Source: Roseobacter sp.
GTDB lineage: Bacteria; Pseudomonadota; Alphaproteobacteria; Rhodobacterales; Rhodobacteraceae
Direction: 5' to 3'
Length of the DNA stretch: 64,000 bases
NCBI GenBank assembly: GCA_024636495.1
Contig: JAGXGZ010000076.1
Span: 1-64,000, forward strand
Under the pieces are notes generated by a model that made no database searches, had not been told where the DNA came from, and was given only the letters and a program-made list of their open reading frames with translations. The translations under genes and the position numbers were made by a program. Of the stretch, positions 16,506 through 19,559 are shown in pieces; position 1 is the stretch's first letter, and the number at the start of each line of letters is the position of its first letter.

Positions 16506-16589
16506 AACATGTGGTCCTTGTGGCCTGTCCTGCGACTTTCTATATTGTAACGTAAGATGGATGGAAACCGATCATACCGGAGCCCGAAA

Positions 16590-16913
16590 ATGAACCTGCC
16601 CCCCAAAGTTACCTCTCGCGCCTTTGACCGCCTCGCCGAAATCGGAGCCGCCGCCGATGGCAAAGCGCTGCGCGTCGCCGTCGAAGGTGGAGGATGCTCT
16701 GGCTTTCAATATGACATTGCGCTGGATGACCCCAAAGACGACGATCTGATCCTCGAAGGGTCGGGCCAAAAGGTCGTGGTCGACTCCATCTCATTGCCTT
16801 TTCTGGCCAATGCTGTGATCGATTTTTCCGAAGAGCTTATCGGTGCACGTTTCGTGATCGAAAACCCCAACGCCACCAGCGCTTGCGGTTGCGGCACGTC
16901 ATTTTCGATGTAA
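16590..16913 (+). CDS. erpA: Iron-sulfur cluster insertion protein ErpA-type
   Basis: A 107-residue A-type carrier that passes iron-sulfur clusters to target enzymes. The three ligand cysteines are present: Cys36 in GGGCSGFQY, and Cys99 and Cys101 in the C-terminal ACGCGTSFSM. Start ATG 16590 (MNLPPKVT) matches the family N-terminus and has GGAG 12 bases upstream. It is divergent from dgt. IscA, SufA and ErpA are hard to separate by sequence alone; ErpA is preferred because no suf genes are near. Confidence 0.9.
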   Translation: MNLPPKVTSRAFDRLAEIGAAADGKALRVAVEGGGCSGFQYDIALDDPKDDDLILEGSGQKVVVDSISLPFLANAVIDFSEELIGARFVIENPNATSACGCGTSFSM

Positions 16914-16966: not shown

Positions 16967-18037
16967 TTATTCAAACGGCGGGGCACCGACCCTTCTTGCC
17001 CGTGAGAACCCCTGGAAAAACGTATCGAAACAGGGCGTAGACTGTTCAGCGGCCTCAATAATAGTCTGCTCGTCCTTTGATAGGTCAAACAGAAGGTTTT
17101 CGCGCATCTTTGACCAATCGGCCGATCTATCCGCGCCCAATCCGAACAGGCTTTCAGACAGCCGTCGTAACGGTCCCTGCCCCTCGACCGCACCAGAAAT
17201 TGTCACCTGACCAACGGGCACCGCATCTGCAAAGGTCCGGTTACCTGCAATATGCCCAAGCCATCCGGTCACCAGATAGCCGTGATACCCGTCCGATGCT
17301 GGCGCGGAGGCGGCACCGGTGAATTGACACGCGGCATGTGCATCTTGCACCAGACGTTCCCAGATCGGGCTTGGGCTTGCGCCGGCAAACCGCAACGCCG
17401 CGCAAATCTCTGCCAACAGATCGCTGTTTTGATCCAGATAGGCCAGCAGCCCCGCATAGTGCAGACTGGTCAATGCAGCATCCGAAAGCCCCGGATCGCG
17501 TCGTCCATAGTCGCTTAGATAGAAAACGATGTGCGCAAGCTCGTAGGCGGCTTTCTTGTTGGGCAAGGCAAACGTCTGCGCACGCGCCATAAAGCGGTGC
17601 AGCCGATCAGTCAGGACCGTCTGTGCTGCCCCAAAGCCGCGCCGCACCAAAAGTCGCGCCGCTTCCGCCCGTTGCAAATCCGACAGTTCAGCCTCTGGCA
17701 GACCTTCTTGTGCCACCCAGCGACACAGCGCTTCGCCCTGATCACCTTTCATGCCCAAATCCTCAAGATCCAGACACAGCGACAGGAAAAACCGGTAATA
17801 CTGGGGGAAAAACTCAAGCTGGGTGGGAATGGACCGATAGAAACCCTCGTATGGTGCCAAGGCTTCGTGCGAAATTTCACCCCCCATGCTGGCCAAAATC
17901 CCTAGCCATTCGGCATTTTCCTTAAGCCAGAACACATCCCCCTGCGCCCGTCTTTGGGTGGCAAACATGGCGCTTAAGGCCGTGACCCCGCGCGGTTCGC
18001 TGTGCATATGCGGCTTCAGGCGGATGATGTTGGTCAT
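16967..18037 (-). CDS. Uncharacterised 356-residue protein, companion of repeat peptide
   Basis: A 356-residue, mostly helical, soluble protein with no signal peptide or membrane segment. I do not recognise an enzyme fold; it resembles a roseobacter family of unknown function (possibly DUF6902, from memory). The best-looking motif is AYELAHIVFYLSDYGRRDP (164-182, with His169 and Asp176), followed by DGYHGYLVTGWL (249-260, with His252). These repeat a helix-plus-His pattern that could hold a metal or substrate. GGAG lies nine bases before ATG 18037. It lies 62 bases after the Cys-repeat peptide gene on the same strand. By position it could be that peptide's modifying enzyme, chaperone or immunity protein. 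Function is inference. Confidence 0.7.
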   Translation of the reverse strand: MTNIIRLKPHMHSEPRGVTALSAMFATQRRAQGDVFWLKENAEWLGILASMGGEISHEALAPYEGFYRSIPTQLEFFPQYYRFFLSLCLDLEDLGMKGDQGEALCRWVAQEGLPEAELSDLQRAEAARLLVRRGFGAAQTVLTDRLHRFMARAQTFALPNKKAAYELAHIVFYLSDYGRRDPGLSDAALTSLHYAGLLAYLDQNSDLLAEICAALRFAGASPSPIWERLVQDAHAACQFTGAASAPASDGYHGYLVTGWLGHIAGNRTFADAVPVGQVTISGAVEGQGPLRRLSESLFGLGADRSADWSKMRENLLFDLSKDEQTIIEAAEQSTPCFDTFFQGFSRARRVGAPPFE

Positions 18038-18099
18038 GGGAAAACTCCGGCAACGCTCTGCGCCAATACGGACGCAGAGCTGGCTTTTAACGTTTTTGA

Positions 18100-18387
18100 T
18101 CAGCAGCTTGTGGTGAACATTTCGACCAGATTGCCGGTGGACATGTCGCTGCCGGCAGGCGCGCAGCTTGTTGTAAAAAGACCCACCGACTGTCCGCCAG
18201 CCATGTCAGCCCCTACAGGTCCACAGCTGGTCGTAAAAAGGGCCGTGCCGCCGCCTGTCATCATATCAATCGGACCTGCATTAGCCCCGGTTGTGAACAG
18301 ATCCGTGCCCAGACCGGTATGCAGGGTTTCAGTCGCCATTTCAGCTGTGGCAACATCGGTGGTTTGAGCATAAGCAAAAGCAGTCAT
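18100..18387 (-). CDS. Four-repeat Cys peptide, candidate RiPP-type precursor
   Basis: A 95-residue peptide with a good ribosome site (AAGGA, eight bases before the ATG). After a 15-residue leader-like start come four 20-residue units, residues 16-35, 36-55, 56-75 and 76-95. Leu/Met-Phe-Thr-Thr falls exactly every 20 residues (Phe31, 51, 71, 91). Units 2-4 end in FTTSC (Cys55, 75, 95), and the last Cys is the final residue. Unit 1 has Gly-Ala instead of Ser-Cys. Between the FTT motifs are Gly-rich spacers with Asp-Met (41-42, 61-62, 81-82). There is no hydrophobic secretion signal. Such a modular core is typical of ribosomally made, modified peptides, but no known modification enzyme is adjacent. 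A structural repeat protein is the alternative. Confidence 0.72.
   Translation of the reverse strand: MTAFAYAQTTDVATAEMATETLHTGLGTDLFTTGANAGPIDMMTGGGTALFTTSCGPVGADMAGGQSVGLFTTSCAPAGSDMSTGNLVEMFTTSC
18103..18342 (-). repeat. Four in-frame 60-base tandem units
   Basis: The coding sequence of residues 16-95 of the peptide is four consecutive 60-base units with no gap, ending directly before the stop. Protein identity is highest at the FTTSC end of each unit. The DNA copies have diverged at third positions, so the repeat is old and held by selection on the protein. Confidence 0.8.
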
Positions 18388-18749
18388 GTGAGATCCTTTT
18401 TAGGGTTAAAGAGTGGCTTTATTGCGACCCAAGGTTGCAATGCCCCATCATCGACTCGCATAAGTTGTTTCGTAAACAGGTATTTCCCTCAAAAGGTGTG
18501 GAGTTTATTTTGTCCACAGGGCTCACCCCGCGCAGTCAATTCTGGGTGCAAGACGAATCGCGTTATCCACAGTCAAAAGAAAATTCTATCCACAGCCCCG
18601 ATTTGCCCGCTTTGGTTTGATTCTGGACGTGATCACCCCCTAAGGTCTGCGAATCGACAGTCCCGACAAGGCGCAATCACAAGCCCGGACCCTTGCCCCA
18701 CGCCGCGGTTTACGCGATAGCTGACGACAGAAATTGCTTGGGGGCAGCC
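18388..18749. other. Intergenic region between repeat peptide and xthA
   Basis: A 362-base, AT-richer gap between divergent genes. It holds the peptide gene's leader, three DnaA-box-like 9-mers in one orientation and the xthA ribosome site (GGGGG before ATG 18750). I see no further gene or tRNA in it. Confidence 0.6.
18510..18594 (+). promoter_or_regulatory. Cluster of three DnaA-box-like sites
   Basis: TTGTCCACA (18510-18518), perfect TTATCCACA (18563-18571) and CTATCCACA (18586-18594), all in the same orientation within 85 bases. The consensus is TTATNCACA. The cluster could titrate DnaA or regulate a flanking gene. There is no AT-rich unwinding element or replication gene here, so an origin is not claimed. 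Confidence 0.5.
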
Positions 18750-19559
18750 ATGAAAATTGCGACATTCAACATCAACGGTATCAAGGCCCGTATCGACGCC
18801 CTGCCCCAATGGCTGGACGAAGCACAGCCTGACGTCGCCATTCTGCAAGAGATCAAGTCAGTCGACGAAACCTTTCCGCGCGAAATTTTTGAAGATCGCG
18901 GCTATAACGTCGAAACCCATGGACAAAAGTCGTTCAACGGGGTGGCGATCTTGTCAAAACTGCCGCTCGAAGACGTCACGCGCGGCCTGCCCGGCGACGA
19001 GACCGATGAACAGGCGCGATATATCGAAGCAACGGTGGTGGGCGACAAGCAGGCGGTCCGCCTGTGCGGGCTGTACCTGCCCAACGGCAACCCCGTAGAG
19101 CTCGACAGCGAAGGCACACCGATTGAAGGGGGGAAATACGCCTATAAACTTGCGTGGATGCAGCGCCTGGAAGACCGCGCGCGTGCGCTGTTGGCCGAGG
19201 AAACACCGTTCCTCATGACAGGTGATTTCAACATTATCCCCCAAGCCGAAGATGCTGCGACCCCGGACGCCTGGCGCGAGGATGCCCTTTTTCGCCCCGA
19301 ATCCCGCGCGGCATGGCGCCGCCTTCTGGCGCTTGGTCTGACAGAGGCGTTTCGCGCCCGTACCCAAGGCCCCGGTCACTATAGTTTCTGGGATTACCAA
19401 GCCGGTGCGTGGAACCGCAACAACGGCATCCGCATCGACCATTTCCTGCTTAGCCCTGTCATTGCCGATTGTTTGCGCGATTGCCAGATCGACAAGGATA
19501 TCCGCGCCCGTGAAAAGCCGTCGGATCATGTGCCTGTGTGGATCGATCTGGATATTTGA
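18750..19559 (+). CDS. xthA: Exodeoxyribonuclease III
   Basis: A 269-residue AP endonuclease/3'-5' exonuclease of the EEP fold, acting in base-excision repair. Motifs: MKIATFNINGIKAR, LQEIK with the metal-binding Glu, GDFNIIP, and the C-terminal SDHVPVWIDL with the catalytic Asp-His. Start ATG 18750 directly begins the family N-terminus. The 19-codon longer frame adds nothing conserved. It stands alone after the DnaA-box region. Confidence 0.94.
   Translation: MKIATFNINGIKARIDALPQWLDEAQPDVAILQEIKSVDETFPREIFEDRGYNVETHGQKSFNGVAILSKLPLEDVTRGLPGDETDEQARYIEATVVGDKQAVRLCGLYLPNGNPVELDSEGTPIEGGKYAYKLAWMQRLEDRARALLAEETPFLMTGDFNIIPQAEDAATPDAWREDALFRPESRAAWRRLLALGLTEAFRARTQGPGHYSFWDYQAGAWNRNNGIRIDHFLLSPVIADCLRDCQIDKDIRAREKPSDHVPVWIDLDI

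Follow-up and report, generated by a model that had tools for sequence, protein, structure and literature searches.

The window, a stretch of 64,000 nucleotides at the start of contig JAGXGZ010000076.1 of Roseobacter sp., carries two tandem genes on its reverse strand, located between a HesB/Fe-S_biosyn gene and an xthA-like exonuclease gene (Table 1). The upstream gene encodes a 95-residue repeat peptide and the downstream gene a 356-residue protein. A preliminary description, made from the letters alone, had reported the peptide with a good ribosome site, the large protein on the same strand 62 bases later, Phe-Thr-Thr every 20 residues, Ser-Cys at the end of units 2–4 and Cys95 as the last residue, and all of these were confirmed, the ribosome site being AAGGA. 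It had also described four exact 20-residue units; the spacing is indeed exactly 20 (FTT at residues 31, 51, 71, and 91), but the units are not exact copies, since unit 1 closes with GA instead of SC and both the spacer residues and the codons differ. Seven proteins of the window were scanned, the neighbors among them being dgt-like HD, HesB, exonuclease, YHS, and HNH proteins; none of the seven was the product of a lasso-peptide gene, and no protease or exporter adjoins the pair.

Table 1. Features of the peptide/DUF6902 locus and its flanks (positions are those of the window)
Feature	Position	Strand	Basis or remark
95-aa repeat peptide, candidate multicore precursor	18100..18387	-	ORF, repeat analysis; relatives upstream of DUF6902
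AAGGA ribosome site, peptide gene	18394..18398	-	sequence
Unit 1 core FTTGA, residues 31-35	18283..18297	-	repeat analysis
Unit 2 core FTTSC, residues 51-55	18223..18237	-	repeat analysis
Unit 3 core FTTSC, residues 71-75	18163..18177	-	repeat analysis
Unit 4 core FTTSC, residues 91-95, protein end	18103..18117	-	repeat analysis
Hairpin between peptide and DUF6902 genes	18055..18080	-	folding, window z -2.41
GGAG ribosome site, DUF6902 gene	18045..18048	-	sequence
356-aa DUF6902 protein, candidate maturase (peptide epimerase)	16967..18037	-	Pfam, model, alignment
His169 codon	17531..17533	-	alignment; substituted only in two enzymes without peptide
His252 codon	17282..17284	-	alignment; common to DUF6895
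HesB/Fe-S_biosyn gene, conserved flank, outside the system	16557..16913	+	Pfam, synteny
xthA-like exonuclease gene, conserved flank, outside the system	18693..19559	+	ATG start at 18750

The self-identity of the peptide was 0.39 at a lag of 20, and none of 20,000 shuffles reached this value when all lags from 8 to 30 were allowed (best shuffle, 0.29). At the third codon position, 773 of 1815 codons differed; because the unit pairs had been picked for identical residues, this count was not used as a selection test, and it shows only that the units are not fresh copies. The peptide matched no Pfam, NCBIfam, or PADLOC model, and its structure model was poor (pLDDT 50.5), with strands at each repeat.

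The large protein had been called a protein of unknown function in the preliminary description. It does belong to described families: it matched Pfam DUF6902 (PF21843) over positions 1–351 of the 351-position profile (E = 1e-137, 459.3 bits against a cut-off of 27) and also passed DUF6895 (PF21836) over positions 71–253 of 289 (E = 5.6e-22, 78.9 bits against a cut-off of 23.8). NCBIfam gave no match for it, and no PDB chain matched its sequence at E ≤ 1. The structure model was almost all helical; in a second look at its structural neighbors, the best were terpene cyclases and protein farnesyltransferase beta chains, and helical-repeat proteins were among the weak Foldseek matches. The lasso-peptide epimerase MslH was absent from the fold matches listed, an absence that alone excludes nothing.

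The intergenic hairpin was strong in the window and in locus L033 only. A shared RNA element between the two genes was rejected because six other intergenic regions folded without the hairpin (z -1.48 to 1.84). In the window, the hairpin might control the ratio of peptide to enzyme.

Of 36 genomes of the window's genus, 28 carried a DUF6902 match over the cut-off, as did 82 of the 295 that were sampled from its family. After 16 exact duplicates were dropped, 109 loci (one source of which was the best 80 of 291 matches) gave 93 distinct enzymes, and a repeat peptide lay upstream on the same strand in 93/93. The same was true of 75 of 77 further loci, the exceptions being L196 and L211; the 82 family genomes comprise 77 together with L001, L005, L128, and L129, which were read, and G587, a contig-edge fragment that was left out. 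When pooled, 2 of 170 DUF6902 rows, representing 158 distinct enzymes, lacked a repeat peptide. Alignment A1 was made without 9 of 80 genome-contig loci (L037, L040, L046, L056, L074, L080, L087, L095, and L106). Repeats were visible in each of the loci cut by contig ends (L002, L170, L171, and L193, with two units left in L002) and in each of those with N runs (L104, L163, and L195). The least clear positives were L208, with about 490 bases between the end of the peptide and the enzyme, L210, where the peptide frame continues to the enzyme start, and two-unit peptides such as that of L022. A profile built from 22 peptides matched 12 of 12 DUF6902-positive genomes of the genus, once each and at the DUF6902 locus, and 0 of 8 DUF6902-negative genomes of the genus, one of these eight being only 64% complete. 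The pairing of peptide and DUF6902 is therefore well supported, and the pair is real. The preliminary description had suggested testing whether the two genes are found together in relatives with a variable number of units; they are, with very few exceptions, and the number per peptide ranged from 2 to 20 in the loci read.

We also compared the chromosomal site. Relatives of HesB and xthA were both present in 62 of 68 full-length 11-kb loci. Among seven genomes of the genus lacking DUF6902, the HesB-xthA junction was empty of both genes in six, with 62 to 427 bases from HesB to xthA (match to match), and the seventh was cut by a contig end; the corresponding distance in the window is about 1,780 bases. 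These data indicate that the peptide and DUF6902 genes are gained or lost jointly between HesB and xthA, in a setting of housekeeping genes (HesB, dgt, and xthA). A mobile or phage-borne system was rejected, since synteny is conserved and tblastn of plasmid and phage collections found no match. A defense system was rejected as well, with 0 PADLOC families for both proteins at E ≤ 0.1.

Across relatives, the repeats start after a short N-terminal stretch, often MTA, and a G-[DE] stretch stands before each core. Gly occupied position -6 in 97% of 515 regex-selected units, although this position is not in the regex, and was mostly followed by [DE]-[GA]-[TV]-x-[ML]-F. In 538 units from 93 peptides, a few of which are false matches of the pattern, core position 1 was F in 499 and otherwise Y, M, or V; position 2 was mostly T or S (also A, C, V, and M, and in a wider sampling P, I, and L); position 3 was mostly S or T; position 4 was mostly G or S (also C, A, and W); and position 5 was S, L, C, M, A, V, or others. 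The wider sampling added the motifs FPSGS, FPSWS, FLSAS, FITSC, FTNWC, LSPSC, and MMCCS. Units were mostly spaced by 20–21 residues, with 8, 17, 19, and other values occurring too, and the last unit was the protein end in 78 of the 93 peptides. Units of 8 residues were seen in L053, L055, and L076 (for example, TALFTSGS in tandem) and look as if the core alone suffices. The peptides of L119/L131 and L120 carry the motif LSTSSF or FSTSSF, with Phe at the motif end.

The five core letters were 90% identical among units of one peptide and 52% identical between peptides. Motif likeness tracked enzyme likeness (Mantel r 0.31, 0 of 2000 permutations), a correlation that shared descent alone could also produce. 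As for the Cys and FTT positions singled out by the preliminary description, the motif frame is conserved, but Cys is absent from the commonest motif in 69 of 93 peptides, and 23 of 93 extracted peptide ORFs contain no Cys anywhere. Cys-dependent chemistry as a common theme was rejected on these counts, and a thiol is not required. A tolerant position 2 and a largely Gly position 4 make side-chain chemistry unlikely there; chemistry on the backbone would be a better fit.

In the enzyme alignment, position 169 was His in 167 of the 170 DUF6902 rows; the remaining three were a gap in L087, Arg in L196, and Gln in L211. Both L196 and L211, the two without a peptide, also lack Y165, Y173, D176, and D206; L196 retains E210 and H252, and L211 has lost these as well. 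D176 is a weaker marker, an acid being missing there in nine other rows. The peptide profile found no peptide elsewhere in the L196 and L211 genomes. The two enzymes come from different genera, and their sequences are very unlike. If shared descent is ignored, the chance that two randomly marked rows of 169 would be L196 and L211 is 1 in 14,196. The active-site residues of DUF6902 thus seem to be kept by the presence of the peptide. In L087 (Roseovarius litorisediminis), the DUF6902 frame ends after about 140 residues and the FTSSM peptide is intact; this early stop is either a recent loss or a sequence error.

The DUF6902 proteins L212 and L213 (343 and 316 bits, respectively) come from another class of the phylum. 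Upstream of L212, which lies on the reverse strand, and separated from the enzyme by about 310 bases, is a 76-residue peptide in which the unit G-[EA]-G-[TS]-E-L-x-G-C-Y-T occurs three times at a period of 19; the L213 locus is interrupted by the end of its contig. Four distant DUF6895-type proteins, L124, L125, L126, and L127, are each preceded by a short, precursor-like peptide, with the aromatic cores GPWFV in L124 and GPWYI and GPWFV in L125, two copies of WTF[VI]S-NYVYK in L126, and WAFIVKGKFVFK in L127, whose enzyme was found by a sub-threshold DUF6902 match. Between genomes, these peptides resemble one another, with z values of up to 13.1 in local alignment, although 2 of 13 pairs show nothing. 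Their N-terminal parts look helical and share the pattern LxxAGIIxxxxTLDxL, and their cores contain Trp. Near L124 lie an O-methyltransferase, an MFS transporter, and a papain-like protease. In the alignment, Y165, H169, G178, D206, E210, Y251, and H252 are common to the window enzyme and L124–L127, the four DUF6895-type proteins compared.

A short DUF6895 protein from the window's own family, L130, has a possible precursor, GWWAVVSDHCVVAGG. No precursor was found in the flanking DNA examined for L214–L219, which weakens a general precursor rule for DUF6895. L214, L215, L216, and L217 are DUF6895-like and keep a His-x-Asp-Phe-Gly type motif, and L214 also has a sub-threshold SQHop_cyclase_C match (18.1 bits against 26.1). 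L132, L133, and L220 fell under the DUF6895 cut-off. L218 and L219, whose two genomes belong to a single genus in another class, carry a Peptidase_M55 domain (D-aminopeptidase; 140 and 148 bits, respectively) fused to a DUF6895-like stretch, and this fusion links the DUF6895-like domain independently to D-amino acids.

Taken together, the computed pairing, joint gain and loss, repeat anatomy, likeness to DUF6895, and invariant residues lead us to infer an enzymatic role for DUF6902, with the peptide as substrate and epimerization as the reaction. The relation of enzyme and substrate is quite probable, and a precursor with an iterative maturase is the best-supported mechanism; for epimerization as the chemistry, we put the chances at roughly even. 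On balance, we lean slightly toward a minimal two-gene multicore RiPP-type system, the maturase of which would most likely be a peptide epimerase of the DUF6895 kind. The peptide would be a multicore precursor in which a short N-terminal stretch is followed by repeats, each of which has a separate recognition stretch, G-[DE]-x-[TV]-x-[ML], and then a core, F-[TS]-[ST]-[GS]-x, that usually ends the protein. DUF6902 would be a helical, possibly alpha/alpha-toroid enzyme acting on every core, in which H169, H252, D206, and E210 may form acid/base pairs that invert at least one residue of the core to the D form. Four observations make epimerization the most likely chemistry: the resemblance to DUF6895, a core that tolerates many residues, the fusion with a D-aminopeptidase, and the two invariant His residues with acids. 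The assignment of L212 and L213 to DUF6902, the L212 peptide, and again the fusion raise its odds slightly. The RiPP-type reading of the preliminary description is thus supported by the co-occurrence, the varying unit number, and the motif frame, but not by the Cys positions, and the enzyme has some precedent, as the sister family DUF6895 includes a protein that is a lasso-peptide epimerase according to the title of its report (Shi et al., ACS Catal. 2026, 10.1021/acscatal.5c08590).

The same precursor-maturase pair might carry another chemistry, in which a toroid-like enzyme crosslinks, prenylates, or alters aromatic or Ser/Thr core residues. The terpene cyclases and farnesyltransferase beta chains that head the structural neighbors, the SQHop_cyclase_C match of L214, and the predominance of Phe at core position 1 (499 of 538 units) point in this direction. 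We nevertheless regard it as fairly unlikely: the core positions vary widely, the aromatic residue is replaced in some relatives (ALSPSC and MMCCS), the pair has neither a prenyl donor enzyme nor any other partner next to it, and the title cited above names a DUF6895 protein as an epimerase.

Two further explanations dispense with a modified peptide. The repeat protein could be structural or self-assembling (solenoid- or amyloid-like) or multivalent, with DUF6902 as its chaperone or binding partner, and the regular spacing of 20–21 residues, the poor peptide model with strands at each repeat, and the helical-repeat proteins among the Foldseek matches would fit such a role. A spacing of down to 8 residues in L053, L055, and L076 would be awkward for a solenoid, however, and enzyme-like invariant His, Asp, Glu, and Tyr residues that are lost along with the peptide fit catalysis better, so that we consider this explanation improbable. 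We give very little credence to the idea that the peptide regulates DUF6902, as an inhibitor or pseudo-substrate, and that the true substrate lies elsewhere. Enzymes without the peptide lose their invariant residues, which makes the peptide look like the reason for the active site, and up to 20 units exceed the needs of an inhibitor, even though there are two tandem genes and nothing else and a degenerate DUF6902 without peptide is retained in two lineages.

If an iterative peptide epimerase is indeed encoded here, DUF6902 would be a compact tool for placing D-residues in repeats. In many marine roseobacters, the pair occupies one fixed chromosomal place, and the enzyme probably edits every unit of a partner peptide whose core varies between species. 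No other biosynthetic-cluster gene is nearby, and cluster-based mining would therefore miss the pair, which would be an example of a RiPP overlooked in this way. The natural series of motifs (FTTSC, FSSGS, FTSSL, FASGS, FTSWS, FPSGS, GCYT, and others) offers a direct way to test specificity. As a tentative and rather doubtful extension, the pair may represent a new class of RiPP without a cluster, in which a single helical enzyme introduces D-residues into as many as about 20 tandem cores of a protein that stays intact; the trait would be chromosomal and widespread among roseobacters, with related systems in another class, and its core motif would be uniform within a species and different between species.

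The precursors of RiPPs such as cyanobactins and graspetides are multicore, with tandem cores and a recurrent flanking stretch beside a maturase gene. The window pair likewise has tandem cores, a recurrent flank, and an adjoining candidate maturase gene, but it lies next to no macrocyclase, ATP-grasp enzyme, protease, or transporter. The RiPP logic is known; what is new is a maturase family unnamed in the literature searched and a fixed housekeeping locus without a cluster. DUF6902 was named in no paper in that literature, and no such peptide/DUF6902 pair was named in it, mostly at the level of titles and listings. RiPP clusters found by genome mining in Sulfitobacter, the same kind of host, depend on genes for DUF692, P450, and S9 peptidase proteins, and the pair is not mentioned in excerpts of that report (PMC11278168). 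In excerpts of another report, the lasso-peptide epimerase MslH uses two His/Asp pairs in acid/base catalysis and has a calcineurin-like fold with Ca(II) (PMC10406935). The reaction of DUF6902, with its two invariant His residues and invariant acids, would be of the same kind, whereas its model is almost all helical and related by sequence to no PDB chain. The DUF6895 family of the titled lasso-peptide epimerase is the sister by sequence, its cut-off being passed by the window protein. With no lasso gene among the seven window proteins scanned, we did not file the pair as a member of a lasso pathway: its main family is DUF6902, and its candidate precursor is a tandem multicore protein.
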